A stretch of 40,065 bases of DNA, from IMG/VR virus record IMGVR_UViG_3300047322_000284, positions 1 to 40,065 of that record; one strand, 5' to 3'. Position 1 is the stretch's first letter, and the number at the start of each line of letters is the position of its first letter. Shown here piece after piece: positions 6,519-40,065 of this stretch. The position numbers and the translations under genes are program-made. Under the pieces are notes generated by a model. The model was not told where the DNA came from. It saw only the letters and a program-made list of their open reading frames with translations, and did not search any database. This stretch comes from a virus.

Positions 6519-6968
6519 TTATTTCGCGTGCTCTTTCTCGACTATCGTCTCTATCGGCTTTCCTGTGACGATAGCGCCCATCACCTTTATCAGTGCGGCG
6601 CGCGTTGCTTCAGGTGAATGCTCGTAGAGGCCGCGGACAGTGTTTAGAACGTCTGCCAGCCCCTCGTCCTGGACTTCTGCCGGCGCCTGATGGTTTGTAT
6701 CGAGCCAGCCTTCCGGGAGGTTCAGAGCGCTCTCTATGCGGCGCGCGAGCTGCGGGCCGATGATGCGACCGTTGCCGCCCTCTTCCTTCTTCCCACCGTT
6801 CTTGATCTGCGACACGTAGATCTGATCCATACCGAGACGGTCGGCAAATCGTCTGAGCATTCCCCGATCTGGCTCGTTCGGCCAATCCTTTCTGAAGTCT
6901 TCCTTGAATTGGTCAAACAGCCAAAGGAAGTTTCGTTGGCGGATGCGCTCGATTGTTTCTACGGTCAT
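6519..6968 (-). CDS. XRE-family phage repressor (CI-type, short form)
   Basis: The open frame reaches further upstream, but ATG 6968 has an AGGAA ribosome-binding site and yields a clean 149-residue protein beginning MTVETIERIRQRNFLW. A helix-turn-helix is visible around residues 37-80 (LRRFADRLGMDQIYVSQIKN, then IGPQLARRIESALNLPEGWLD). The C-terminal part is helical and lacks the Ser/Lys LexA-type peptidase domain, so the protein is not expected to self-cleave during SOS. It is divergent from a Cro-like gene across a 266-bp region with promoters and repeats, the classic layout of a lysis-lysogeny switch. Confidence 0.85.
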   Translation of the reverse strand: MTVETIERIRQRNFLWLFDQFKEDFRKDWPNEPDRGMLRRFADRLGMDQIYVSQIKNGGKKEEGGNGRIIGPQLARRIESALNLPEGWLDTNHQAPAEVQDEGLADVLNTVRGLYEHSPEATRAALIKVMGAIVTGKPIETIVEKEHAK

Positions 6969-7078
6969 CTTCGGTTCCTGTGTTTTAGTCGCGGGTTGGC
7001 CCCGTCGTGCGCACCTCATGCGCTTTTCACCGGTACGGGCGTGTTCCCCTCGCCGCCCTGCTCTTTTCGTGTAACAGA

Positions 7079-7107
7079 ATATTGCGACATCAGGCGTCCG
7101 AATGCAA
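7079..7107 (-). promoter_or_regulatory. Repressor promoter (leftward)
   Basis: Read leftward: TTGCAT (7107-7102), a 17-bp spacer and CAATAT (7084-7079). It lies 111 bp upstream of the repressor ATG. This is the best promoter match facing the repressor. Confidence 0.55.
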
Positions 7108-7122
7108 GCGTGAATTAAGCAA

Positions 7123-7193
7123 AAAACTAGAGTTTTCACTAACTTACAGCGCTTTACGCCTACAAATACTGGATACTTGAGGCGCTTTATAAT
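7123..7193 (+). promoter_or_regulatory. Immunity control region: inverted repeat, direct repeats and Cro promoter -10
   Basis: AAAACT (7123-7128) and AGTTTT (7131-7136) form an inverted repeat. GCGCTTTA occurs at 7149-7156 and 7182-7189, 33 bp apart. A consensus TATAAT (7188-7193), overlapping the second repeat, is the likely -10 for the Cro-like gene; no good -35 is present at normal spacing. These are candidate operators for the two switch regulators. Confidence 0.5.
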
Positions 7194-7486: not shown

Positions 7487-7869
7487 GCAAGCCGTACACA
7501 AAGATAATGACGAACAATGGAAAGCTGTTCACGCACGCTTTCCGCACATATATGTTCAAAAAGAGTGGCGGAACGTGCGAATACTGCGGAACTGCGCTGC
7601 GCTCGCGCGATGAAATGTTCATCGATCACGTTGTTCCTCGGTCGCTTCAGGGAAGCAACGACGAGCGGAACCTGCGCGCGGCATGCGTTTCATGCAACTC
7701 GCAAAAAGGTCATAGAACGCTCGGGTACCTGCGGGCCGTTCTCCGCCTGCGTTCCACAAAACTAGAGGGGATCATCACGCCGGCTCAGCTAATGGCGCTT
7801 GAAGAACTCGGTGCGTCCCTGCCGATCCCGCCAACGTTCGTTTTTCATTTCGAGATGGATCAAGCATGA
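7483..7869 (+). CDS. HNH endonuclease
   Basis: The 128 residues contain the zinc-supported HNH fold: CEYC near residue 32, the catalytic DHVVPRS near 47, then N-L-R-A-A-C and CNSQK around 62-73. It is a stand-alone nuclease in the early operon between the Cro-like gene and the replication initiator, coupled by ATGA overlaps on both sides. It may act in DNA processing or as a free-standing mobile nuclease; the tight overlaps favour long integration into the operon. Confidence 0.85.
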   Translation: MSKPYTKIMTNNGKLFTHAFRTYMFKKSGGTCEYCGTALRSRDEMFIDHVVPRSLQGSNDERNLRAACVSCNSQKGHRTLGYLRAVLRLRSTKLEGIITPAQLMALEELGASLPIPPTFVFHFEMDQA

Positions 7870-8579
7870 GCATCATTCGATCCCCCCGCCCCGAAAGCAA
7901 TTTCTACATCCTCAACAAGAGGATCAGCGAGGATTCGCGCTTATCCTGGTCCGCCCGCGGCATGCTGATCTTCCTGCTCGGCAAGCCGGATCACTGGCGC
8001 GTCAACATCGAGGCACTTATCAACTGCACCGGCGAGTCGTGCCGGCCGGCAGGAAAGACGGCGGTCTACGCGATCATTTCCGAGCTGCTGCAAGCCGGCT
8101 ACATGACGCGCCAGAAGCACGCAGACGGAACGCTCGACTACTACGTGCACGAAGACCCGCAGAGCCCTGTGGATAAAGGCTCTGAGCCAGATTCAGGAAA
8201 CCCAAATCTGGCTAACCCAAATCTGGGTAATCAGACACTAGTAAGTACTGAGCTTAAGCAAGTATCCAGAAAGGCAGCAAAAACTAAGGACGCGGCTGCG
8301 CCGCTCGTTCTTCCGGAATGGCTCGATCCGGAATTATGGGAAGAATGGGTCCAGCACCGCAAAGAAAAGAAGAAGCCCCTGACGCCTAGCAGCGCACTGA
8401 AGACGATCGAGCAGCTCGCAGACTACCGCGCGCAAGGGGTCGATCTGAAGGCGGCGATCAATCACTCGATTGCGAACGGTTATCAGGGTATTTTTCCGCC
8501 CAATTCTAAAACATCTGGTGTATCATCTACTAAAACAAAGTCGCTAGCCGACATGGACTATTCAGAGTCTTTCTTCTAA
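7866..8579 (+). CDS. Replication initiator-like protein (lambda O / DnaD type)
   Basis: The 237-residue protein begins MSIIRSPRPESNFYILNKR, a common start of phage replication proteins. It carries an N-terminal winged helix (residues 20-85: WSARGMLIFLLGKPDHW...AVYAIISELLQAGYM), a low-complexity linker with repeated NPNL, and a C-terminal helical domain (WLDPELWEEWVQHRKEKKKPLT). It is followed by a DnaC-type loader gene, so the pair probably opens the lytic origin and recruits the host DnaB helicase. The repeat-rich linker region around 8195-8245 could include origin sequence, as in lambda O, but I cannot show iterons there. Confidence 0.75.
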   Translation: MSIIRSPRPESNFYILNKRISEDSRLSWSARGMLIFLLGKPDHWRVNIEALINCTGESCRPAGKTAVYAIISELLQAGYMTRQKHADGTLDYYVHEDPQSPVDKGSEPDSGNPNLANPNLGNQTLVSTELKQVSRKAAKTKDAAAPLVLPEWLDPELWEEWVQHRKEKKKPLTPSSALKTIEQLADYRAQGVDLKAAINHSIANGYQGIFPPNSKTSGVSSTKTKSLADMDYSESFF

Positions 8580-8615
8580 CCAGAAGTGTTGTACAAAAAC
8601 AAACGGGAACCGACG

Positions 8616-9413
8616 ATGCATGTTTTATCAACCACACTGCCAGACGAGGGATCGTGCGCAAAGCACGGTTCTTTCCCTATTCGACAGATCAATGTCGCTG
8701 AGTCTGTGATTCGAATTACGCGCTGCCCTGCCTGCTCGAAGGAAGACGCAGACCGCGAGGCAGCAGAGCGCACCGAAAAGGAGCGCGCCGAACGTCAGGC
8801 GAAGATCGAAGCGCGTCTGGAGCAAGCTGGTATCCCTGCTCTGTTCCGCGATCGCACGTTTGACAATTACGAGTTCCCGACAAGCGAACAACTGCGCGCA
8901 CGTAACCGTTTCTATACCTTCGCGCAAAACTTTGACCATCACCTGAAGCGCGGCACCGTCCTAGTCGGCATCGGCAAAGTTGGTACCGGTAAATCTCACC
9001 TTGCATGCGCGGCCGCTAACTACCTGATGGCACGCGGTCACACCGTCTACTTTACGTCCACCGCACGCTTGTTTACCAAGATTCGCGGAACATGGTCGCG
9101 CAACTCCGAGCTTACCGAAGAACAGATGCTTCGCCAGTTCGAGTCGATCGATTTGATGATCCTCGACGAGATCGGATTGCAGCGCGGAACGGATGACGAG
9201 ATCCGCACGCTGCACGAGCTGCTAGAGGCGCGACGCCTCAATTGCAAGCCCACCATCCTGCTGACAAACCTCGACGTACCGAGCCTGAAGGCGTATCTCG
9301 GCGAGCGCTTCATGGACCGCCTGAGCGAATCTGGCGTCAGCGTGAAGTTTGATTGGGAGAGCCACCGGCGCCAATCGCGCGACGTGGGCGGCCTTGATTC
9401 GGAGGCAGCATGA
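8616..9413 (+). CDS. DnaC-type helicase loader ATPase
   Basis: I chose ATG 8616, which follows a GGGA ribosome-binding site, over the GTG at 8586; it gives 265 residues. An N-terminal CPAC with an upstream Cys/His suggests a small zinc site, then a charged coiled segment. The AAA+ core follows: Walker A GKVGTGKS near 120-127, Walker B LMILDEIG near 180-187, and a sensor-like ILLTNLD near 212. It is predicted to load DnaB at the origin opened by the preceding protein. Its stop overlaps the next start (ATGA). Confidence 0.88.
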   Translation: MHVLSTTLPDEGSCAKHGSFPIRQINVAESVIRITRCPACSKEDADREAAERTEKERAERQAKIEARLEQAGIPALFRDRTFDNYEFPTSEQLRARNRFYTFAQNFDHHLKRGTVLVGIGKVGTGKSHLACAAANYLMARGHTVYFTSTARLFTKIRGTWSRNSELTEEQMLRQFESIDLMILDEIGLQRGTDDEIRTLHELLEARRLNCKPTILLTNLDVPSLKAYLGERFMDRLSESGVSVKFDWESHRRQSRDVGGLDSEAA

Positions 9414-18031: not shown

Positions 18032-18619
18032 ATGACTGACAACTTCCGCGGCGACAACGCCAAGCTGGTCGAGTCGATTAAGGCGCTGCTGGCGCTCGAC
18101 GAGAGCGGGTCATTGGTGCCGCACGGCGTAGGTGGGCACGCTCGCCAGCTATTGAGCGCAGCCGCATCGCGTCTCTCCGCGAGCATCGCCGACACAGCGG
18201 GGGCGAAGCCGATCTATCAGGTTCAAGACCCATGCGAAGCGACGTGGGAAGACACGGACTGGCTCACGTACAAAAGTACAGATGGCGCTTTCGCCCGCAT
18301 CGTCTACGCCGCCCCTCCCGTCACTCCGAGCGACAAGCAAGATGAATTAGGACCGTTCCGACACAAATGCAGGTCTTGCGGTGGGATATTCGGTGCCCGC
18401 CACTGGAAGCCGATATGTTCCACTTGCCGTGCAAACGCAACGTCCATCGACAAGCAAGAGGCATCAATGACCCGCGCTGGAATCGCATGTCTGCAACGCT
18501 ATGCGTTTCGACCAAATACCAGAATGAATTCGCTCGAGAAGGATAGCGAGGGTTCGTGGCTTCGGTATTCGGATGTGGTGCGTGTTGTAGAAGGCGCGAT
18601 CAAAAAGGATCCGAAATGA
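18032..18619 (+). CDS. Mosaic accessory protein with SIADTAGAK linker, 195 aa
   Basis: A helical N-terminal part (residues 1-48) is joined by ASIADTAGAK (near 50-59) to a second domain ending RIVYAAPPV, and then to a short zinc-ribbon-like part (CRSCGGIFG and CSTCRANA). The C-terminal third reads WLRYSDVVRVVEGAIKK, a common phage ending. The DNA encoding SIADTAGAK is repeated in two later genes and partly in a third. The architecture suggests modular shuffling; no enzymatic role is seen. Confidence 0.65.
   Translation: MTDNFRGDNAKLVESIKALLALDESGSLVPHGVGGHARQLLSAAASRLSASIADTAGAKPIYQVQDPCEATWEDTDWLTYKSTDGAFARIVYAAPPVTPSDKQDELGPFRHKCRSCGGIFGARHWKPICSTCRANATSIDKQEASMTRAGIACLQRYAFRPNTRMNSLEKDSEGSWLRYSDVVRVVEGAIKKDPK
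18181..18208 (+). repeat. Dispersed in-frame repeat, copy 1
   Basis: A 28-base block (GAGCATCGCCGACACAGC then GGGGGCGAAG) encodes SIADTAGAK. It is identical at 19127-19154, identical over 25 bases at 19985-20009, and matches over 18 bases at 19521-19538. All copies are on the same strand and in the same reading frame of different genes. Confidence 0.9.
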
Positions 18620-18864
18620 CCGACGAATACAAATACGTTGACGCGAAAGGCTGCTGCTACAAATCGCCCTGCGAGCGTCCGGGCGAAGGACCGTGCGAGA
18701 TGCCTGCTCGCCGCTCGAACCATGCGCATACGATGGCCGATAGTCGAGACTGCCAGCGATCGCATTGGGATGGAAAGATTGACTACAGCATGGGATACCC
18801 ATGCCCTATATGCACTGTGTGCGGCGTTCGAAAGGGAGCGCCATGCAAGGGAGCGAGCAAATGA
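18616..18864 (+). CDS. Cysteine-rich small protein, 82 aa
   Basis: ATG 18616 overlaps the previous stop. It contains many Cys (KGCCYKSPCERPGEGPCEMP and PCPICTVCGVRKGAPCK), indicating two small metal-binding knuckles. No relative is recognised. It overlaps the following gene by ATGA if the start at 18861 is used. Confidence 0.55.
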   Translation: MTDEYKYVDAKGCCYKSPCERPGEGPCEMPARRSNHAHTMADSRDCQRSHWDGKIDYSMGYPCPICTVCGVRKGAPCKGASK

Positions 18865-19610
18865 CCATCTGGAAGACGACGCATAAGGCTGTCTGCGTGC
18901 CGCTCACCGAAGACCGAGAAGTTGCGGAACAGTGGCGCGCGAACGGATACGAAGTGATCGAATTTTCCGCCCTCGAATCCCGCGTATTGGCGGAGAGGAA
19001 GCCGAGCCCGAAAGATCAGGCGCGCCGCTTCGTGAGCGACTTCACGAGAGAGATGGGCTTCGCGATGAGCGACCATGCACAAGAGGTCATGCTCAATCTG
19101 TTCCTGAAACATGCCGCCAGTGCGCAGAGCATCGCCGACACAGCGGGGGCGAAGCAGGACGATGTGAGGGATGCGCTCGATATTGCCGAGCAGCTTGACG
19201 AGATGAGCGACCGGATAACCCGCTTCAGCAATTACGAAGGCGACGCGGTGTGTGCTCGCGCGGCTCAACTTCTGAGGACGTTTGCCAACCATCAAGCCGC
19301 AAGACGCAAGGTCATGAGCGACGGCGATTTGCAAGACATCGTGATGGGCCTGTTTGGTCGATACACCATTCCGGCGGATTACAAGCTAGCCAACTCGGTT
19401 GCGGAATTCGTTATGTCGAAGCTACCGCGCTCCGCGCCATACGGCGCACCATTCACGACCGACGTTGCGCACTGCTGCGGCGATCCCGAGACGTGCAACG
19501 ATCCGTGCGAGCCTGCTATCGACACAGCGGGGGCGAAGGCGGTGAATGCTGCGGCTGTTACGGGAGACGGGCGTCGCGCTGCCGCCATCGCAAAGGAGAG
19601 CGGGAAATGA
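18861..19610 (+). CDS. Mosaic accessory protein with SIADTAGAK linker, 249 aa
   Basis: ATG 18861 overlaps the previous stop; ATG 18843 is an alternative. An N-terminal domain (TIWKTTHKAVCVPLTEDREV) is linked by SIADTAGAK (about residue 90) to a helical middle, and a second shorter copy (IDTAGAKA) lies near residue 222. A Cys-rich patch (CCGDPETCNDPCEP) lies between. This again looks like assembled modules with no catalytic motif. Confidence 0.6.
   Translation: MTIWKTTHKAVCVPLTEDREVAEQWRANGYEVIEFSALESRVLAERKPSPKDQARRFVSDFTREMGFAMSDHAQEVMLNLFLKHAASAQSIADTAGAKQDDVRDALDIAEQLDEMSDRITRFSNYEGDAVCARAAQLLRTFANHQAARRKVMSDGDLQDIVMGLFGRYTIPADYKLANSVAEFVMSKLPRSAPYGAPFTTDVAHCCGDPETCNDPCEPAIDTAGAKAVNAAAVTGDGRRAAAIAKESGK
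19127..19154 (+). repeat. Dispersed in-frame repeat, copy 2
   Basis: 28 of 28 bases match copy 1 at 18181-18208; it encodes SIADTAGAK inside the 249-residue gene. Confidence 0.9.
19521..19538 (+). repeat. Dispersed in-frame repeat, partial copy
   Basis: 18 bases, GACACAGCGGGGGCGAAG, match the 3' part of the repeat and encode DTAGAK at the C-terminal part of the 249-residue gene. Confidence 0.75.
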
Positions 19611-19789
19611 GCAAGCCCATTGAGAAGAATGGCCCGTACAAGATCGTGCAGTCCGACGACGGACGCTTCGTGCTGCATGGATGGTACGGGTCAGTCGAAG
19701 GGACATATCTAACGCTTGAATCAGCGCGGCACGAAATGCACCGTCTGATTCATATCGACGTGCAACTTGGCGACTTGGACTATGCGTAA
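19607..19789 (+). CDS. Hypothetical protein, 60 aa
   Basis: ATG 19607 overlaps the previous stop (ATGA); the longer frame from 19250 is inside the preceding gene and is not used. MSKPIEKNGPYKIVQSDDGR is a small beta-sheet protein ending with an amphipathic helix. The function is unknown. Confidence 0.6.
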   Translation: MSKPIEKNGPYKIVQSDDGRFVLHGWYGSVEGTYLTLESARHEMHRLIHIDVQLGDLDYA

Positions 19790-19802
19790 AGGAGTCCGGG
19801 AA

Positions 19803-20390
19803 ATGACTGAAGAACTGAAGCCGTGCCCGTTTTGCGGCGGCGAAGCATCCTTCACACTAACTGAGTCGCGCGCCGGCAAGTGGGGATTCGTGAAGTGCGG
19901 TTCCTGCGGGGCAACCTGTAACGATGACGACGTTGGCGACGCCGATTGGTGCGTTGATGTCTGGAACCGACGCGCCCCCTCCGCGAGCATCGCCGACACA
20001 GCGGGGGCGCAGAGCGCAGAGCAAGAGCGCGAGCGGTTTGAAGCAGATTACGCCGTCGTGTGGAACCGATCGATGCATGAAAACGGATGGGCGAGCGATC
20101 ATACCGCCGACGATGTGAGGGCGCTTCGCGAAGGAGATACATACGGAGAGGGACGCGACTATCTCAACGCGCGCTGGGAGGGATGGCAAGCCCGTGTTGC
20201 TCTCGCCGCCCCTCCCGCGAGTTCGGTAGCCGATCAGTCTGGCGATACGGAAGTGGAGTGCAACTGCGGAAGCAACCCGCACGCTGAAAGCTGCCCCGTG
20301 ACGTCGCATGTTCGCGCTTTGTTCGCGGCATGCTGGACAGAAGCCGCTATGGACAAGGAAATCGCCGCCATTGCCAAGGAGCCGAAATGA
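19803..20390 (+). CDS. Lar-like zinc protein fused to an SIADTAGA-linked domain, 195 aa
   Basis: ATG 19803 has AGGAG upstream. The N-terminal 58 residues (EELKPCPFCGGEASF, then CGSCGATC, ending CVDVWNRRA) match the Lar restriction-alleviation type zinc ribbon. The linker SIADTAGAQ (about residue 62) joins it to a domain (ERFEADYAVVWNRSMHENG, ending RVALAAPPA) found in many accessory phage proteins, then a short Cys patch. Lar proteins temper host restriction; whether this one is active is unknown. Confidence 0.7.
   Translation: MTEELKPCPFCGGEASFTLTESRAGKWGFVKCGSCGATCNDDDVGDADWCVDVWNRRAPSASIADTAGAQSAEQERERFEADYAVVWNRSMHENGWASDHTADDVRALREGDTYGEGRDYLNARWEGWQARVALAAPPASSVADQSGDTEVECNCGSNPHAESCPVTSHVRALFAACWTEAAMDKEIAAIAKEPK
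19985..20009 (+). repeat. Dispersed in-frame repeat, copy 3
   Basis: 25 bases identical to copies 1 and 2, preceded by CTCC as in copy 1. It joins the Lar-like zinc domain to the following domain. Confidence 0.85.
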
Positions 20391-20884
20391 GAAAGCGCAC
20401 GATCAGAAAGCACGTCGCTACGAAAGACGTCATCACTACCCTCTTCAACGGCGACTTACCGTTACAGGGCGACGAGCGAACGAACGTTCTTACGTCTGTT
20501 CACGCAGCCGCCATCTCCCTTGCTCGCGGCGATGGGCAGAAAGACGCATGGGACAAGCTTGTCTATGCAATGAATATTTCCATCATTCTGTGCGAGACGG
20601 CCGGCAATAAGGAAGTCGGGTTGCAAGCGCTCTATGACGCACAGAACGCGCTGATTGACGCAGCGGAACGCTACAACACAACCGGGCGACTCGTGTTCGG
20701 GCCTGGCGGATTGCCGGCGCTCAATGGCGGCATCCATGTATTCGAGGCGCTTGTCGATACGGTGACGCGCAGGCAGTACGTGCGGGCATCGGATGAGGTT
20801 CTGAGGCGGCTGAACGCGGGGAAGGCTGTTCAGATACGCAGGGGACGGGTGACGGAACGGTTTGAGTTGAGACGCGCCGCATGA
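20387..20884 (+). CDS. Hypothetical protein, 165 aa
   Basis: ATG 20387 overlaps the previous stop. It has a basic start (MRKRTIRKHVATKDVITTLF), a helical core (SLARGDGQKDAWDKLVYAMN, then YDAQNALIDAAERY) and a basic C-terminus (RGRVTERFELRRAA). Similar proteins occur in beta-proteobacterial phages without known function. It is the last gene of the early operon before the plasmid-maintenance module. Confidence 0.6.
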   Translation: MRKRTIRKHVATKDVITTLFNGDLPLQGDERTNVLTSVHAAAISLARGDGQKDAWDKLVYAMNISIILCETAGNKEVGLQALYDAQNALIDAAERYNTTGRLVFGPGGLPALNGGIHVFEALVDTVTRRQYVRASDEVLRRLNAGKAVQIRRGRVTERFELRRAA

Positions 20885-20890
20885 TGTACA

Positions 20891-20918
20891 CGTGTGCGCA
20901 CACGCGCATACGTGTGCG
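20891..20918. promoter_or_regulatory. Palindromic array upstream of parA (candidate centromere/operator)
   Basis: CGTGTGCGCACACG (20891-20904) is a perfect 14-bp palindrome, and CGTGTGCG recurs at 20911-20918. CGCACACG in the first palindrome and CGTGTGCG in the second form a further inverted pair. Position 70-95 bp before parA suits a parS site or an operator bound by the ribbon-helix-helix partner. Confidence 0.6.
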
Positions 20919-20930
20919 TCACTCCCCCCA

Positions 20931-20959
20931 TTGATGTTTGCGCAAGTATGGACTAGGAT
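20931..20959 (+). promoter_or_regulatory. parA promoter
   Basis: TTGATG (20931-20936), a 17-bp spacer and TAGGAT (20954-20959). TTTGCGCA occurs twice, overlapping the spacer and just after the -10. The ATG of parA follows with AGGGGAAG as the ribosome-binding site. Confidence 0.6.
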
Positions 20960-20985
20960 TTGCGCACAATAACAGGGGAAGTAAC

Positions 20986-21636
20986 ATGACCATCATAGCG
21001 GTTGTGATGCAGAAGGGTGGCGTCGGCAAGACAATGACCGCTACCAACGTCGCCGGTACGCTCGCCATGCAGGGCGGCTCTGTGCGCCTGTATGACGCCA
21101 ATCCGTACCAGTCCAGCGCGTACCAGTGGGGGCAGTTGCGCATCGATGCCGAAGTTCCGCAGAACCTAAGCGTCGTGCGGGTCGACCAGAATTACGGGCA
21201 CGCCGTCACTGCTGACGCGCCGAACTTCGATCACATCGTCATCGACTGCCCGCCGAACCTCGATATGGAAACACGCGTCGCGATGGCATTGGCTGACATA
21301 ATCCTGATTCCGTTGCGGATAGGCCAATTTGACGCCTGGAGCCTCGCGCAGACGGCGCACATAGTCAGGCAGAGAAGGGCGACGGTAACGGCGCCAGTGC
21401 GCGCTATCGCCTTTGTGAACGCCGTTCCGCATTACATCAGGGCGGAGCTTGACGAATCGATCGACGTTATCCGTGAAATGGGCGACTTCGAACTAGGCCC
21501 AACGATCGTCGACCGGGCGGCATACCGGAAGGGCGCGAAACTAGGGTTGTCGGTAATGGAGTTGCCGGCCGAATACCGGGACGGGAAAGCGAGTGACGAG
21601 TTCGGCACACTGATGGCGGGGGTTCTCAATGGCTAA
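20986..21636 (+). CDS. parA: ParA-family partition ATPase (small, type Ib)
   Basis: I use ATG 20986 behind AGGGGAAG; the product has 216 residues. The deviant Walker A MQKGGVGKT lies at residues 8-16, a Walker A'-like segment YDANPYQSS near 40-48, and Walker B HIVIDCPPNLDM near 80-90. There is no N-terminal DNA-binding domain, so it belongs to the small ParF/type Ib group. Such ATPases pattern on the nucleoid and segregate low-copy circles. The next gene is a ribbon-helix-helix candidate, as in ParF-ParG pairs, so segregation of a plasmid-form prophage is likely. Confidence 0.9.
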   Translation: MTIIAVVMQKGGVGKTMTATNVAGTLAMQGGSVRLYDANPYQSSAYQWGQLRIDAEVPQNLSVVRVDQNYGHAVTADAPNFDHIVIDCPPNLDMETRVAMALADIILIPLRIGQFDAWSLAQTAHIVRQRRATVTAPVRAIAFVNAVPHYIRAELDESIDVIREMGDFELGPTIVDRAAYRKGAKLGLSVMELPAEYRDGKASDEFGTLMAGVLNG

Positions 21637-21877
21637 TCCTCCCCTGAACCGAAGCGCCGTCGACGCCTTCATCGGCCAGCAGCCAGCAAAGCCAGAGAAC
21701 GAGGCGCAGCCGACATTCCGCGAGCGGGACTCGACGCAGCGGATGGCGGTGAATATGCCGAAAAGCTTGTATGAGGAATTGCGCGCGTTTATGAAGCTGA
21801 CGGATACGCCAATGTCTGACCTGCTTGTCGAAGGGGCGCGACGCGAGCTGGCGAGGCGGAAGCAGGGCGGGATATGA
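21629..21877 (+). CDS. Ribbon-helix-helix partition partner (ParG-like)
   Basis: The start overlaps the parA end by 8 bp. The 82 residues have a disordered N-terminal half (NRSAVDAFIGQQPAKPENEA) followed by a ribbon-helix-helix core (RMAVNMPKSLYEELRAFMKL, then MSDLLVEGARRELARRK). ParG-like proteins use the flexible tail to stimulate the ParA ATPase and the RHH core to bind centromere repeats. Assignment is by architecture and linkage; it should bind the palindromic array at 20891-20918. Confidence 0.78.
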   Translation: MANPPLNRSAVDAFIGQQPAKPENEAQPTFRERDSTQRMAVNMPKSLYEELRAFMKLTDTPMSDLLVEGARRELARRKQGGI

Positions 21878-22437
21878 ATCAGGGCCAACTTTGGGACGAG
21901 TTGGACGCCGATACGATATGGGTCCACGTTCTGAGAAGCACGCCGCTTGATGCGATGGGGATAAACGCTATCGCGGTATATGTCATGCTCAAGACCTATA
22001 CGGATTTGAACAACGGAACGGCGTTCCCTGGCGTCGACACGCTGGCCGAACGCCTCAAGACTTCTCGCGATACTGTCGAACGCGCGCTGCGCCGCTTGAG
22101 GGAGCTTAAATTGCTCGATTGGGACAAAGACCCGGAGAACCGCAAGCGGAACCGTTACCGGTTTACTGAGCAGCTTCCGCTGGTGACTAAGAGCGATCGG
22201 ACGCCTGCTGGAACCGCATCGGTTCCGTATGTTCCGACTGGCTTACAAGACTTCCTTAACGAACTGAAGGAATTCGCTAAGAACGGCACGCCGACTGGTC
22301 CGCAGATCGTTATCAACCTGTCGTTGCAAATTGGCGACAACAATGTTCAGAATGTTCAGAACGTTGTGGTCGAGGGATCGTCTGTATCGCAAGATGCGAT
22401 TGCAGAAATCAAGCGAAAGCTTGCCCCTAAATCTTAG
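21874..22437 (+). CDS. Winged-helix Rep-like plasmid initiator candidate
   Basis: The start overlaps the partner gene by ATGA, so parA, the RHH gene and this gene form one operon. The 187 residues contain a winged helix (INAIAVYVMLKTYTDLNNGT, GVDTLAERLKTSRDTVERAL, RRLRELKLLDW) of the HTH_36 type common in plasmid and phage initiators. A Val/Asn-rich C-terminal part (GDNNVQNVQNVVVEG) and a basic end follow. Iterons and DnaA boxes follow 22 bp after the stop, where a Rep protein would bind. Confidence 0.65.
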   Translation: MNQGQLWDELDADTIWVHVLRSTPLDAMGINAIAVYVMLKTYTDLNNGTAFPGVDTLAERLKTSRDTVERALRRLRELKLLDWDKDPENRKRNRYRFTEQLPLVTKSDRTPAGTASVPYVPTGLQDFLNELKEFAKNGTPTGPQIVINLSLQIGDNNVQNVQNVVVEGSSVSQDAIAEIKRKLAPKS

Positions 22438-22459
22438 AGAAATCTTACTTCTTATTAGT

Positions 22460-22560
22460 GCCGCACCCGTGCGGTATATCCGGCGAAATGTGCCGCACCC
22501 GTGCGGTATGTGGCCGCCGATATGCCGCACCACAGCGGTATGTGGATAACCTTATCCACA
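22460..22560. other. Candidate plasmid replication origin: three iterons and two DnaA boxes
   Basis: GCCGCACCCGTGCGGTAT at 22460-22477 and 22492-22509, and GCCGCACCACAGCGGTAT at 22524-22541, start exactly 32 bp apart (three helical turns). They are followed by two inverted DnaA boxes, TGTGGATAA (22541-22549) and TTATCCACA (22552-22560). An AT-rich stretch with repeated ATAA(A)CCTTAT runs to about 22610. The set is that of an iteron-regulated plasmid origin directly downstream of its Rep-like gene. Confidence 0.8.
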
Positions 22561-22595
22561 AGTGATAAACCTTATTATGTCAATTATCGTAAACA

Positions 22596-23657
22596 ATGAC
22601 AAGAAACAATAACCTTGACGGCCTGCGCGGGCTGGCCGCCCTTTCTGTCGTCCTCGGCCATTGCGCGACCTATTACGGTGGCGTTCCGATCTACTTGAAG
22701 GAAGCTGCCGACTTTCACAAGATGACAGGCCCGGAGATCTTCATTCGGCTTTGGCATACGGTATTTAATGCTGACGCGGCCGTAATGCTGTTCTTCGTGC
22801 TTAGCGGGTATGTGCTTGGCAAGTCGATGCTAAGGCGGTCAGAAGGGCCAATACAGGCGTTCTTGCCGTTCGTTTTCCGTCGAGCGACGCGCCTTTACCC
22901 TGTCGCCATCGCTGCCGCTGCGCTGCTTTGGGTGGCGCTGCCGCGCGTTACGCTGCCCGAGGCCATCTCTGCGGCCACGCTGATGGATCGTTCTGTTAAT
23001 GGCGTGATCTGGAGCCTACAGGTCGAGCTGGTCGGGTCGCTCGTGATCTATGCGCTGTGGGCGACGCGTAGCCGGATGCTGGTGAGCTCACTTGTGATTG
23101 GCTTCGCGTATCTGTATTACGCTGTGCCCGCCTGGGTTCATCCGATGACGTTTGGCCTTTTCGAAAGCATGTTTCTGATGTTTCAGGCTGCGTTCGTTTG
23201 CGGGTATGCCATCGCCTCTGGCGTCGCGCGCATCCCGAGATCGAAATTGCTGCTGCTGGCCGGAGTAGTCGCCTATCTTGGCTCGGATCTGTTTCTTGGC
23301 CGCGAATGGGGAAGCCGCTTTATGGAGATCGCAGGCGCAACAGTGATCGTCGGCTACTTTGCAAATGCGCCGATCGCGGCACTCGACAGCCGACCGGTTC
23401 AATTCCTGGGAGCGGTCAGTTACCCAATGTACATCGTTCAAATTGTGATGGTCGCCTACGGCGCGAAGTTCGTCGAGTTCGTCGCACAGAAGGCCAACCC
23501 GTTGCCGAAAGTGCTGCTGCTCGCCGCGGCCGTCGTTCCGCTCTCCCTTGTTATGGGCTGGCTTATGACGGTCACGGTCGAGCGGCCGGCAATGAGGTTG
23601 CCAGCGCTGCTGTCTTCGAAAAGGAGCGCGCCGGCATCGATTACGGAAGTTGCGTAA
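22596..23657 (+). CDS. Membrane acyltransferase (acyltransferase 3 / OafA-like)
   Basis: The 353-residue protein has the family opening NNLDGLRGLAALSVVLGH (residues 4-22), a further family motif FFVLSGYVLGKSML near 68 and FRRATRLYPVAIAA near 90. About ten hydrophobic segments follow. These enzymes acetylate or acylate surface polysaccharides at the inner membrane. In a temperate phage this alters O-antigen, blocks receptor use by related phages and changes the host surface. It lies behind the origin, has its own strand relative to the late block, and converges with the fibre-like gene by 17 bp. Confidence 0.88.
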   Translation: MTRNNNLDGLRGLAALSVVLGHCATYYGGVPIYLKEAADFHKMTGPEIFIRLWHTVFNADAAVMLFFVLSGYVLGKSMLRRSEGPIQAFLPFVFRRATRLYPVAIAAAALLWVALPRVTLPEAISAATLMDRSVNGVIWSLQVELVGSLVIYALWATRSRMLVSSLVIGFAYLYYAVPAWVHPMTFGLFESMFLMFQAAFVCGYAIASGVARIPRSKLLLLAGVVAYLGSDLFLGREWGSRFMEIAGATVIVGYFANAPIAALDSRPVQFLGAVSYPMYIVQIVMVAYGAKFVEFVAQKANPLPKVLLLAAAVVPLSLVMGWLMTVTVERPAMRLPALLSSKRSAPASITEVA

Positions 23658-33294: not shown

Positions 33295-33915
33295 TTACCC
33301 TCTGGCATAAACCGTCTGAGTGCCGACCGGGATCGGCGATGTAAAAGTGATCGTCGTTCCGCTGACGGAATATTGGTCGCTTCCCTGGAATACGCCGTCG
33401 AAATGCACCGTTACCGCCGCGGGCGACAGATAGGCTTTGCTAAGCGTGAGCGCGGTTGTCGTGCCAGGCGTGAAGCCGCTTCCAGACGCGAACACGTCTT
33501 CGACAGTGGCAGCGATGCCGTCTAGCTTTGCCTTATCTGCGCTCGACATGAAGCCGGCCGCCGTGCTGCTCGCAAGCGCGTGCAGATCCGGCGCATCCTG
33601 CAATCCGTGCGTCGGAACGAACGAATCAGGCTCAGGCTCAGGCTCGCGCAGCGCTACAGCAAGAGCGGAAAGCGCCGCCTCAACATCAGCAATGCGGCGC
33701 GACAGTTCCGGTGCGTAGCTAGGCGCGACGGCCGATTCTGCCTGTTGCGCGAGCTGCGAAATCAGGCTCTTAAAATCGGCTGTGCTAGTGCCAGGAACTC
33801 CGCCCGTTCGGTTGAACAGCGCGAGCAATAGCTGAAACCAGACCATCGACACCCGGCCCGTCTTTGGGTCGGTCATCGGAACGCCAACGTCGGGGAAATT
33901 TGCTTGCGAGCTCAT
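33295..33915 (-). CDS. Tail needle-position protein with fibre-type C-terminal module, 206 aa
   Basis: It occupies the gp26 (tail needle) slot of the P22 order. The N-terminus (SQANFPDVGVPMTDPKTGRV, VWFQLLLALFNRTGG) is a common virion-binding start. A helical segment follows (ELSRRIADVEAALSALAVAL), then the fibre-like LASSTAAGFMSSADKAKLDG. The C-terminal module (FTPGTTTALTLSKAYLSPAA ... PIPVGTQTVYARG) is the same beta module found in the tail-fibre protein at 25888-27531. The function as plug/needle or short fibre is inferred. Confidence 0.65.
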   Translation of the reverse strand: MSSQANFPDVGVPMTDPKTGRVSMVWFQLLLALFNRTGGVPGTSTADFKSLISQLAQQAESAVAPSYAPELSRRIADVEAALSALAVALREPEPEPDSFVPTHGLQDAPDLHALASSTAAGFMSSADKAKLDGIAATVEDVFASGSGFTPGTTTALTLSKAYLSPAAVTVHFDGVFQGSDQYSVSGTTITFTSPIPVGTQTVYARG

Positions 33916-35336
33916 GTTCTAGCCCGCGATACGTCGACAAACGCACCGTTCAGCGCGGTCTTAACGGGAGCCGACCACGACAGTTCGAACACCCGATCGC
34001 GCGAGTACCCAAGGCGCTGCCATTGGACCGACGTTAGAAACTCGCCGACCTTGCCAAGCGATGCCGTCACGTAGTTTCCCCACGAACGGCCGCGATCATC
34101 AGACCAGCGCAGCCGTATTTCTGGCGCGTCTGTATCACCTGGCAATCCGTTGCCAACTTCCATGTCCGCGATGAACTGCCGGAACAGCACGCGATTCCCA
34201 TCAGCGCCGCTGATGTGCGGGAAGCTGCGTATATGCTCGATCGTATCGCCGTTGTCTGTGTAGGCGTTGGGGTCGAGCATATAGACGTTGCCAGATTGCC
34301 AGTCGCCTACCAGATTTCGCCCGCCGTTGAACGAATAGCAGTTCATGCGATGACGACTGATTGACCCGTCCGCTTCAAGATATCCGCGCTGATGCCATTG
34401 GCCGGTTGCCGTGTCGAAACACCACGTCTTGTTGGCGGTCGGGAACGTCAGCACGTAGAACGCATGGCCGCCTTGCAGATACGCGAAGCCGATCGCGTCG
34501 TCTATCCGGCTGTACGTTAGAAACTCCTGCTCTAGCGCGTGAGTCGAAACGCGCTCTGCCGCGTAGTTCCTGCCGGCGAACACGCAGCCCTGCCCTTGCA
34601 GGTCTTTCGACAGCCAGAACAGCGCGAGATCGATCTTTGCGACCGAATGTTTCGCCGCGCATCCATGTTCGATGAACACACCAGGCATGCGCCCGAAGGT
34701 GAAGTCAGACGCGCCGGTGTTGTACCAGACTTCAGTTGTCAAGTCACCGAACAGCCATATCTCGCGATGCATCACGGCAAGCGTGACGAGGTTATCGGCA
34801 TACGTTGATTTGCTGGCGATATCGAGCGAATCGAACGTAATATCGTTGAACTTCGAAATATAGAAGTGCTGCGTGCCGGGTTGATTGAATACGAAATAGC
34901 CGTCGACGTAATCGACCTTATCGGCTCCATAGAACGCCGTGTCGCTCACCGGAGACATGACGTTATCCGTCATGCTGATCGTGTAGCCGTTCGCGGTTCC
35001 GTCCACAACGAACACGCTTGTTCCGTTGTCAGCCATCGAGACGGGGCCAGCCTGTGACGAAATGATGCCGAGCAACTTATAGGCGTTCGCCGCGCTCACG
35101 AAATACACATTGGCGCCAACGACTTCATAGCGATTGCCGTTCGTCGCCGTATAGATGCAGCGCGACTCGCCAGCGGCGGGAGGCGTCGAAACGAGCGTGA
35201 GGCCGGGAGTCGGGTAGTACGTGAACGGCGCGTTGGCGTCTTGCGGGTTCTGCTCAGCGTACAAATTGACCGACCGCTGCGCGTCAGCGATGACGCTTTT
35301 CGCGGCGTATGCACCGCCAGTCAGAGGAATCCGCAT
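33912..35336 (-). CDS. Tail hub / packaged-DNA stabilisation protein, gp10-like
   Basis: The 474-residue protein starts MRIPLTGGAYAAKSVIADAQ and continues NLYAEQNPQDANAPFTYYPT, the family signature of P22 gp10 (tail accessory factor). A beta-propeller-like middle has repeated YDV/WFG-type strands (REIWLFGDLTTEVWYNTGAS, FTFGRMPGVFIEHGCAAKHS). It plugs the portal-gp4 complex after packaging and links to the tailspikes. It overlaps gp4-like and needle-position genes by 1-4 bp. Confidence 0.88.
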   Translation of the reverse strand: MRIPLTGGAYAAKSVIADAQRSVNLYAEQNPQDANAPFTYYPTPGLTLVSTPPAAGESRCIYTATNGNRYEVVGANVYFVSAANAYKLLGIISSQAGPVSMADNGTSVFVVDGTANGYTISMTDNVMSPVSDTAFYGADKVDYVDGYFVFNQPGTQHFYISKFNDITFDSLDIASKSTYADNLVTLAVMHREIWLFGDLTTEVWYNTGASDFTFGRMPGVFIEHGCAAKHSVAKIDLALFWLSKDLQGQGCVFAGRNYAAERVSTHALEQEFLTYSRIDDAIGFAYLQGGHAFYVLTFPTANKTWCFDTATGQWHQRGYLEADGSISRHRMNCYSFNGGRNLVGDWQSGNVYMLDPNAYTDNGDTIEHIRSFPHISGADGNRVLFRQFIADMEVGNGLPGDTDAPEIRLRWSDDRGRSWGNYVTASLGKVGEFLTSVQWQRLGYSRDRVFELSWSAPVKTALNGAFVDVSRART

Positions 35337-36437: not shown

Positions 36438-37643
36438 TTAGGAAAGGATTCGGCAGGCCATTTCCGGGTAGATCGCGCTCCAGCCGTACAAAACATCGAT
36501 ACGGCACGGCACAACGTCAGTGCCGATCGCATACTGGCGCGCGATACGCAGCGAAATGCCCTTGTAGTTACGACGAGCGCCCCAAGCACCGTATTGCGAC
36601 ACGTCTTCCAAGTCGGCCGTAGCCAGCGTGAAGGCGTTCTTGTGGTACGCGAGGTTTGCGCCATACGAAGTCGATGCCGCAACGTCCCACGTCACAACAG
36701 CAGCGTTTGCAGGACCAGCCGAAACCGTCTGATACTGCTGGTTGCTTGCCGCGGTGTTGATCGCCGGGAAGATCGACAGCGTTGCGTTGCCCGAGCCGTC
36801 AGCCGTTGCAGCCGCGGTAACGGTGAATTGACGCAGCACGCCATACGATTGACGGTTCTGCGGGTTCACTGCATAGACGCCAGCGATCGTGAACGTGTCG
36901 CCCTTCGCGACGGTTGCAGCAGCACCGAGGCCGGTAACGGTGAGCGTCGAGCCGGTTTGACCCGCGCCCGAAACAGTGCCGTTCGAACGCGTACCGGTCG
37001 TGAACGTGTTCACGTTCTGATCCATGCCGATATCGAAACCGAGCGCCGGAACGAAGATGCCCGAATCGTATTGCTCGCCGACTTGCTTCGACGGGTTCAG
37101 CAGGCCCGACGTCGACTTGACCATCTTGCCGTTCACGGTCGGATTCCACACGGCCGCACGCTGCTTGCCGCGCTGAACTGCTTCGTTGTCCAGTTTCGTG
37201 CCAGCGTCGATCAGGATCTGAATATCGTTCGGCGTGGTGCCTGCGGTGCCAACGCTGTTCGCGACGCTCGAAGCAAGCCCGAGGCCGTCGAAGTCCAGCT
37301 TATTGGCGATCGTTTCCATTGCCGGAACGAGGTAACGCTCCGCGAAGTCGTCGACGGTCAACGTGAGCTCGGTCGAGCTGAACTGAAAGTCGACGTGAAA
37401 CTGGTTCTGCATCGTGATCGCAACCGACGTTTCGTTCACGTTTTCGAGGCCAAGGTTCGGCCCCGACGTACCAACGAAGCGAACGGGCTTGCGCGCGTTC
37501 ACGGTCGAACCAACCTTCGCGCCCGAAACGGCGAACTCGCTGCTGTATTCGCGGTTAGCGCGCGACGTGAAAGCGAGGTTGTTGGTAAGAATCTGAAGCG
37601 ATTCGTCGAGGATCTTGGTCGGGGTAAGAAGCGTATTTGCCAT
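36438..37643 (-). CDS. Major capsid (coat) protein, P22 gp5-like
   Basis: The 401-residue protein begins MANTLLTPTKILDESLQILT, the P22 coat pattern, with VGSTVNARKPVRFVGTSG and a HK97-type body. An insertion-like region (GTRSNGTVSGAGQTGSTLTV, followed by GDTFTIAGVYAVNPQNRQSY) matches the I-domain position of P22 coat proteins. The C-terminus ends DVLYGWSAIYPEMACRILS. It forms the icosahedral shell on the scaffold encoded just before it. A strong terminator follows. Confidence 0.92.
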   Translation of the reverse strand: MANTLLTPTKILDESLQILTNNLAFTSRANREYSSEFAVSGAKVGSTVNARKPVRFVGTSGPNLGLENVNETSVAITMQNQFHVDFQFSSTELTLTVDDFAERYLVPAMETIANKLDFDGLGLASSVANSVGTAGTTPNDIQILIDAGTKLDNEAVQRGKQRAAVWNPTVNGKMVKSTSGLLNPSKQVGEQYDSGIFVPALGFDIGMDQNVNTFTTGTRSNGTVSGAGQTGSTLTVTGLGAAATVAKGDTFTIAGVYAVNPQNRQSYGVLRQFTVTAAATADGSGNATLSIFPAINTAASNQQYQTVSAGPANAAVVTWDVAASTSYGANLAYHKNAFTLATADLEDVSQYGAWGARRNYKGISLRIARQYAIGTDVVPCRIDVLYGWSAIYPEMACRILS

Positions 37644-38426: not shown

Positions 38427-40065
38427 ATTGCTGTTGAGCGGGCAACAAAAAACCGCCCGAAGGCGATTGCTGTTGTGTGGGGTCTTGCGTTTGCGGTGGA
38501 CTGCCCTCTGGCGCGCCGGTCTGCATCATCTGCATGACGACTTGCGTAGCGACGTGCGCGACGAGTTCAGGATCAAGCGGCTGACCGAGTGCTTGCAGGC
38601 GCTTCGTCTCGGCGTCATAGGCCTTGATGTTCGTATCCTGCTGCTCCTTGCCCTGCTGCGCCTGCTGAAGCTGCTGCGTCAGGTGCTCGATCATCTGGCC
38701 CATGTGCTGCATCTTCTGCGTGGCGTCCTGCATTTCAGGCGTCGGGCCTTCGCCCAAGATCGCAGGCGGGATCGTGCGGTGCAGACGCTCGGCAACCTCG
38801 TCAGCCATCGGGAAGTCAGCAGCCTTGAACAGCAGGTCGCCGGCAACCTTCATCAGCTCTTGATCCTGGCTCATGATCTGCGTGAGCGCGTTGAATGCTT
38901 CCTGCCTGCGCGTCTCGTAGTTCGGGCCAACCTCGACGGTCACGTCATAGCGGCCGATGCCAGGGTTGTAGATCAGTTGCACGTCCTTCAGATGGTCGCG
39001 CTGGTCCTGCGGCGGTGCGGGCCGTCCATCAGGCGTCGACACCGGATGCGGCTGATTCGGATCGAACTGAGCAAACGTCTCTGTACCGTCCTCGCCCAAG
39101 ATCCGCACGACTCGTGCCGTGTCGTAAATCTTCGGGATCAGGTCGATCAGCACGCGGCCGGTATAGCGGATCGAGCGAGCAACGTTATCGATGAAGTGAT
39201 ACGTCGCGCGATCGCCCTGACGCTGCCGAGCCTGAATCGCCACGCCAGCTTGAGCGTTCGATTGCTGCCCGAACTGCTCCTGATACTGGCCGGACGACAT
39301 CATTAGCTCTTGCTGCGCCGTCTGCATGCCTTGCAGGTACGCAGAAGCGCCAACAGGCGGCTGCGAACGTTCCGGGCGGGGGATCTCTGATCCATCCTCG
39401 CGCAGGGCGTTGTAGGGCAGATACGGCAGGTTGTCTTTGTTCGCCTGCGCCCACTCGCCCTCATATCCTTCGAACGCCTCTTTCGGCCCGATGTACGGCG
39501 TCTTGGTCTGTAGCGCGATGTACTCGACGTTTGCGCTGCTCATGTAGTTGTACATGCGCTGCGCATCTTTCATGCTGCGCGTGTGGCCCTTGCGCTCGAC
39601 CTTTCCGTCGATGACGATCTCTTCGCCGATGACGCGCACAATCGGGATATACCGACCGGGCCACGGCTTTTCGTCGATGATCGTGTCGCCGGCGAGCAGA
39701 TACCAGGTGATCTGCGGCGTGCTGACCGTGCGACGCTGGATTGACGCGTCACCCTCAACCCTCTTCTGCTCATCAGGCGGCAGATCGGACAGCATGACCG
39801 CGCCAAGCTCAGGATGAGCAACAAGCGTGTCGCTCTTGCTCGTCTTGCGGAAATACTCGCAGACGCGGATCTTGTCCTTGCCGATCCAATCGCCCTTCGA
39901 TGAGTCATCGCCGAATTGCACGTCGGCAGCCTTCTCGCCCGGATAGGTCGCCTCGAACTCGGCTTTCGTCATCTGCTCGAACGCGAAGCCATACTTCGCG
40001 TCTGAGCCGTCTGCGGATTCGATATCCGGATCAAGATAGACCGTTAGCGGGTTCTTTACTCGACG
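38425..40065 (-). CDS. Portal protein, 3' part (5' end beyond the right window edge)
   Basis: The frame continues upstream of ATG 39972 to the edge at 40065 and is equivalent to residue 190 of the left copy, so the visible 515 residues from 39972 are not the true start. It has the same portal signatures as the left fragment (MTKAEFEATYPGEKA, GPNYETRRQEAF) and in addition the 3' end: a Gln/Met-rich coiled tail (QKMQHMGQMIEHLTQQLQQA) and the C-terminus GGFLLPAQQQ. The overlap with 1-1258 is about 93 percent in DNA and mostly silent. A short hairpin with six T lies at the 3' end (38447-38465). Confidence 0.92.
   Translation of the reverse strand, partial: RRVKNPLTVYLDPDIESADGSDAKYGFAFEQMTKAEFEATYPGEKAADVQFGDDSSKGDWIGKDKIRVCEYFRKTSKSDTLVAHPELGAVMLSDLPPDEQKRVEGDASIQRRTVSTPQITWYLLAGDTIIDEKPWPGRYIPIVRVIGEEIVIDGKVERKGHTRSMKDAQRMYNYMSSANVEYIALQTKTPYIGPKEAFEGYEGEWAQANKDNLPYLPYNALREDGSEIPRPERSQPPVGASAYLQGMQTAQQELMMSSGQYQEQFGQQSNAQAGVAIQARQRQGDRATYHFIDNVARSIRYTGRVLIDLIPKIYDTARVVRILGEDGTETFAQFDPNQPHPVSTPDGRPAPPQDQRDHLKDVQLIYNPGIGRYDVTVEVGPNYETRRQEAFNALTQIMSQDQELMKVAGDLLFKAADFPMADEVAERLHRTIPPAILGEGPTPEMQDATQKMQHMGQMIEHLTQQLQQAQQGKEQQDTNIKAYDAETKRLQALGQPLDPELVAHVATQVVMQMMQTGAPEGSPPQTQDPTQQQSPSGGFLLPAQQQ
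38808..40065. repeat. Right copy of the diverged terminal duplication
   Basis: Aligns to 1-1258 with a constant offset of 38807. Differences are mostly third-codon changes, except a block aligned with 545-745 where amino acids also change. This makes two alleles of one gene more likely than an exact terminal repeat of one molecule. Confidence 0.95.

Follow-up and report, generated by a model that had tools for sequence, protein, structure and literature searches.

The window analysed here is a whole IMG/VR virus record (IMGVR_UViG_3300047322_000284; 40,065 nt), and the segment under study is a partition-replication cassette at positions 20882-22610. It comprises an upstream repeat site, a promoter, parA, a small partner gene, a winged-helix rep gene, iterons, DnaA boxes and an AT-rich stretch, and it follows the last early gene and precedes the lysis genes, which run in the opposite direction; the par-type genomes that were mapped use this slot too. 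The first-pass annotation had taken it for a complete plasmid-maintenance module of a probable phage-plasmid, and all of the elements that it listed are in place, with reservations about the palindrome and the partner given below. The segment is very probably the lysogenic replicon of a phage-plasmid.

The first gene, parA (20986-21636, + strand, ATG at 20986), encodes a 216-amino-acid (aa) ParF-type Walker ATPase without an N-terminal helix-turn-helix (Pfam AAA_31, 2.6e-19; PHROG ParA, 3.5e-37), and the ParA family profile aligned over 1-214 with ParF of TP228 (4dzz; 6.6e-9). It overlaps by 8 bases (21629-21636) the gene for an 82-aa ParG-like or ribbon-helix-helix (RHH)-like partition partner (21629-21877, + strand), which in turn overlaps rep by 4 bases (ATGA, 21874-21877), so that the three genes look translationally coupled. 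The partner was assigned from this context; it matched no Pfam or NCBIfam family and gave a weak Arc-like PHROG match (E 0.041). In its AlphaFold monomer model, a conserved VNMP strand position is followed by two confident helices (residues 45-58 and 62-80). A Foldseek search with that model returned no match, but RHH proteins form their fold as dimers, so this negative is uninformative. The RHH partner of the first-pass annotation therefore stands as a gene in the expected place with a suggestive fold, but not as a firm database assignment.

Upstream of parA, CGTGTGCG/CGCACAC repeats form an imperfect palindrome that is the putative centromere (parS; 20882-20931). The centromere-like palindrome proposed earlier is present at 20882-20921 (arms of 18 nt, 83%), but an array of short repeats for RHH binding, a putative parS, is the better reading of it. 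GTGTGCG occurs at three sites in the 154 bp before parA (expected 0.00) and is found in the window's clade; in relatives outside that clade the same 154 bp holds GTATGG/CCATAC (59 matches in 14 loci, almost none expected), most commonly at a spacing of 8 bp. The predicted promoter of par-rep, TTGATG-17 bp-TAGGAT (20932-20960, + strand), is accompanied by operator-like TTGCGCA repeats and lies where the first-pass annotation had placed one, and most relatives have TTGAAG-17-TACCCT with the same position and spacing. Together, the repeats and promoter fit a centromere read by an RHH dimer, by analogy with ParF/ParG. The type Ib ParF-ParG-parH system of TP228 resembles the window in the near full-length ParF match, the small partner in the same operon and the repeats upstream of parA; it differs in repeat sequence, and the window partner cannot be aligned to ParG by sequence.

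The third gene, rep (21874-22437, + strand), encodes a 187-aa protein with a single winged-helix domain of the HTH_36/DnaD_N-like type, predicted to be a plasmid initiator. It matched HTH_36 (6.8e-10), DnaD_N (2.1e-6, exceeding the curated cut-off) and several replication-initiation PHROGs (9.4e-8), in agreement with the winged-helix Rep-like gene read from the sequence alone. The RepA_N Pfam family gave no match to it, and the two winged-helix domains Rep3_N/Rep3_C, present in relatives L015 and L016, are absent. Searched against phages, Rep had no match. The C-terminus (residues about 148-165) contains NLSLQIGDNNVQNVQN, which is kept in L004 and L017, and as QVGDNN in L005; it resembles the QIGxxN core of RHIM-like amyloid motifs and is possibly an oligomerisation element.

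Directly behind rep are three palindromic iterons of the CCGCACCCGTGCGG type (22456-22545, + strand), with copies starting at 22456, 22488 and 22520 and thus spaced by 32 and 32 bp. Matches to the iteron pattern exceed those in all 100 dinucleotide shuffles, and palindromes at 32-bp spacing exceed those in all 300 mononucleotide shuffles. The iterons are followed by two facing DnaA boxes, TGTGGATAA-CC-TTATCCACA (22541-22560); the whole window has three TTATCCACA boxes, and only one of them (8168-8176) lies outside this origin. The adjoining AT-rich stretch (22551-22610) is the probable unwinding element, with an AT content of about 63-73% over 22541-22620 vs about 42% for the window, and its TTATTATGTCAA tail recurs behind other Rep subtypes. 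Iterons, boxes and AT-rich stretch all bear out the earlier description. An O-acetyltransferase gene (22596-23657; PHROG 6.2e-32) lies directly 3' of the origin, and relative L025 has another acyltransferase-like gene just 3' of its RepL, which suggests a moron slot.

As the first-pass annotation had advised, Rep was searched against plasmids, and the sole match (35%) was on Polaromonas pA29BJ2 (NZ_MN657148), a complete 104-kb circular plasmid whose name was not found in the open papers searched. There the Rep homologue is third in the same gene order (AAA ATPase, 110-aa protein, helix-turn-helix protein) and is followed by palindromic iterons (CCCTTATnnnTAAGGG, three copies at 33 and 32 bp) and three DnaA boxes (TTATCCACA, TTATTCACA and TGTGGATAA); a nearly identical CTTCTTATTAG flank (TCTTCTTATTAG-like) lies ahead of the iterons. 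The plasmid differs from the window in its iteron sequence, in having tyrosine recombinases elsewhere, and in having no virion genes among its listed features. From these comparisons, a predicted plasmid initiator with its origin is present in the window, and a homologue lies on a plasmid. It is quite improbable that the Rep-like protein is instead a MarR- or GntR-type regulator with the repeats as its operators, in a lytic or integrating phage where ParA is incidental. The structure model of Rep found only MarR-like winged-helix proteins in Foldseek, the best being MarR-type regulators, and HTH_36 and GntR are general DNA-binding folds. The repeats, however, are behind rep and beside DnaA boxes and an AT-rich stretch, sister phages have Rep_3 or RepL initiators at the place of rep, and pA29BJ2 has the same arrangement with no other replication gene among its listed features (the PLSDB table is incomplete).

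The window was scanned for tyrosine (PF00589) and serine (PF00239) recombinases, and neither was detected there, nor in any of 30 related records (control genomes gave positives); the recombinase absence noted in the first pass is thus upheld. To compare inheritance genes across one virion type, 23 long sibling records, the window included, were chosen by the P22 gp10-like head closure gene (33912-35336), whose identity is 78-100% across the best 80 viral contigs, 81% in Paraburkholderia and 70% in Pandoraea genome contigs. Eight of the siblings carry a tyrosine integrase, one a serine recombinase and nine ParA, and none carries ParA together with a recombinase; the chance of zero overlap is 0.0025 by hand arithmetic, a guide only, because the sibling records are related. 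The Rep family is present at full length in 8 of 9 ParA-positive vs 0 of 14 ParA-negative siblings, and the ninth ParA-positive record (G036) has a different initiator-like protein behind ParA. G037 and G038, two ParA-negative siblings that have early genes in common with the window, were discarded as negatives because their contigs end inside the par-rep slot; coexisting strains with different cassettes at this place would be expected to cause such breaks. Relatives with a nearly identical virion thus carry a predicted integration gene, or another predicted segregation-replication pair, in place of the window's cassette.

Chromosomal copies flanked by att sites had been named as evidence that would speak against plasmid maintenance. 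Related prophages were found in contigs of Paraburkholderia and Pandoraea, but these are siblings by virion, and no recombinase-bearing sibling has the window's ParA. Contig C10 of the Paraburkholderia genome encodes a tyrosine integrase at 190.9 kb, some 3 kb away from the prophage stretch analysed (if C10 is the record ending 010), and C10 has no ParA match. An integration route that went unrecognised (XerCD hijack, a transposase or a missed gene), with par-rep only stabilising a transient circle, is very improbable. XerCD-type integration needs no phage recombinase, and related virions do sit in chromosomes; against this, recombinase and ParA are mutually exclusive in the siblings, and no tyrosine or serine recombinase domain is present.

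The phage-plasmid lifestyle in a P22-type podovirus that the first-pass annotation had proposed is supported because no recombinase was found, because recombinase and ParA are exclusive in the 23 siblings, because the same module and origin design are on pA29BJ2, and because the iterons differ from one Rep subtype to the next. The prophage is presumably low in copy number and physically circular. Several observations weigh on the other side. The related phages are all metagenomic contigs, many of them incomplete. Three siblings (G035, G045 and G047) had neither ParA nor a recombinase detected and are unexplained. The RHH membership of the partner draws on context, the weak PHROG match and a monomer model that has no Foldseek match. 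ParA, searched with two peptide patterns only against 84,980 species genomes, gave no confirmed relative and no host. Burkholderiales are the likely host, because the virion siblings and pA29BJ2 point there.

Under the phage-plasmid model, the cI-like repressor would silence the lytic genes after infection, and Rep would bind the three dyad iterons on one helix face. Judging from the origin anatomy and the plasmid relative, Rep and DnaA at the two facing boxes would melt the adjoining AT-rich stretch and load the host replisome. The RHH-like partner, by analogy with ParF/ParG, would bind the repeats upstream of parA and repress the operon; together with nucleoid-bound ParA-ATP it would segregate the low-copy circle. 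Upon induction, a separate O-like/DnaC-like module, whose families are identified, would take over and drive lytic replication.

ParA proteins 77-100% identical to the window's are present in 27 records, where the initiator is of the HTH_36 type in 9, Rep_3 in 7, RepL in 3, divergent RepL-like in 7 and untyped in 1 (L033); typing was by scans of one representative or a few per class (Rep_3, 1e-33 in L016; RepL, 1.9e-30 in L019; RepL-like, 4.6e-6 in L020). The ParA-RHH pair thus precedes four initiator classes, in both podoviral and myoviral genomes: G000, G002 and G005 are P22-type podoviruses, and G024 encodes tail sheath and baseplate. Seven related loci, some of which nearly duplicate one another, are homologous to the window up to 21868-21877, where the partner gene stops and rep starts, and then again from 24510 or farther on, among the lysis genes. 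The Rep subtypes are 16-70% identical, and each has its own iteron: CCGCAC..GTGCGG (window and L017), CCGC..GCGG (L004), GTTCAC..GTGAAC (L011 and L014), CCATCA..TGATGG (L005), CCCTCA..TGAGGG (L006) and GGTGTC..GACACC (L008). A dyad spacing of 32 bp recurs in several Rep types (shuffle-tested in seven loci), and L009 has CACAGGTACGC at 31-32 bp. The Rep of G033 is 96% identical to the L011 protein and likewise has GTTCAC..GTGAAC iterons, yet it follows a ParA only ~31% identical to the window's, indicating that Rep and iterons travel as a unit, separate from par. Larger viral contigs (L005, 78 kb; L006, 62 kb) also have an HTH_36 Rep with several dyad iterons.

In these comparisons, rep with its iterons, par, and the integrase behave as alternative cassettes. 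An assembly chimera of plasmid and phage is exceedingly improbable: the record is of metagenomic origin and its ends differ by 7%, showing strain mixture, but record L007 has the same arrangement over 12.65 kb at 100%, and the same slot between early and lysis genes is used in G002, G005, G033, G034, G036 and G044. We are somewhat inclined to a broader view, in which the P22-type virion lineage would be a chassis for interchangeable lysogeny cassettes, either an integrase or a par unit combined with an initiator-iteron unit, each drawn from several, with the boundary between the two at the partner/rep overlap. Since par also enters myoviruses, incompatibility and virion types would reshuffle independently, and the window Rep would represent an undescribed proteobacterial initiator class binding dyad iterons three helical turns apart. 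Cassette swapping would most likely let related phages escape incompatibility. The system is a natural experiment in which the virus particle is nearly constant while the inheritance mode (integration or plasmid) and the replicon type vary, so that phage-plasmid origin and incompatibility-driven exchange of replication genes can be tested directly. The cassette is compact (1.7 kb), and with its sister cassettes it could also provide a compatible low-copy vector set for Burkholderiales.

Within cluster A of the mycobacteriophages, a single phage group, a partition system stands in for the integration cassette, and some members use a Rep protein and others an RNA-based origin (PMC7157519). These phages differ from the group described here in their mycobacterial hosts, their parABS system (ParB-type), the lack of identified repeats at the Rep origins and initiators of one related family (PMC7157519). 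The prophage of Burkholderia phage KS14, the best phage match of ParA (33%), was shown to be a plasmid and encodes ParA and a RepB initiator; unlike the window, KS14 is P2-like, has a serine recombinase, and carries parA and repB separately in opposite orientation (PMC3091744). By coat protein, the closest isolated phage is Xanthomonas phage PBR31, which is likewise a P22-type podovirus (coat 43%) with O/P-like replication genes, and it differs in having an integrase and excisionase, with no partition or plasmid term in its paper (PMC10975493). Exchange of replication and partition genes was proposed as an escape from incompatibility in a study of phage-plasmid gene flow, which used statistics across known phage-plasmids and whose text, as far as searched, mentions neither podoviruses nor Burkholderia (PMC10879196). 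As far as the open literature searched shows, the P22-type podovirus phage-plasmid lineage, the combinatorial exchange of par and rep at a fixed junction, and the dyad-iteron origin in common with a Polaromonas plasmid are new.

The virion genes assigned by PHROG are terminase, coat, head closure and adaptor, and the P22-type podovirus body proposed earlier is confirmed by a P22-type coat protein (36438-37643, - strand; PHROG 4.5e-79; P22 coat proteins at 45%) and gp10/gp4-like head-tail factors, among them the gp10-like virion marker (33912-35336, - strand; PHROG 8.3e-116). The portal gene was assigned by position and homology and lies at both ends of the window, where positions 1-1258 and 38808-40065 align at 93%. 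The map is thus circular or permuted, with a real unit of ~38.8 kb. Of the mismatches between the two ends, 67 of 89 fall at third codon positions of the portal gene, and the ends were apparently joined from slightly different strains. Relative G002 has a direct end repeat of 105 bp.

The cI-like repressor of the lysogeny switch (6519-7139, - strand) is supported by a PHROG transcriptional repressor match (3.5e-10), but the Cro gene of the repressor/Cro switch proposed in the first pass was matched by no family. Nearby are a lambda O-like initiator (7866-8579, + strand; family match 1e-25) and a DnaC-like helicase loader in the role of lambda P (8586-9413, + strand; 8.2e-75). The O-like gene contains a 15-bp tandem repeat, AACCCAAATCTGG[CG]T (8199-8228), and the TTATCCACA box at 8168-8176, and a putative lytic origin likely lies inside it, as in lambda. 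This system is separate from Rep and presumably lytic; P1, in parallel, separates plasmid from lytic replication.

At the nucleotide level the window had no match among phages and its right half none among plasmids, and Rfam and tRNA scans found nothing. A possible dispersed repeat at 18967-19001 was dropped as it is single copy in the window. Three adjoining early genes (18032-20390) have the peptide SIADTAGA(K/Q) in common, and one of them also has a Lar-like restriction-alleviation domain.

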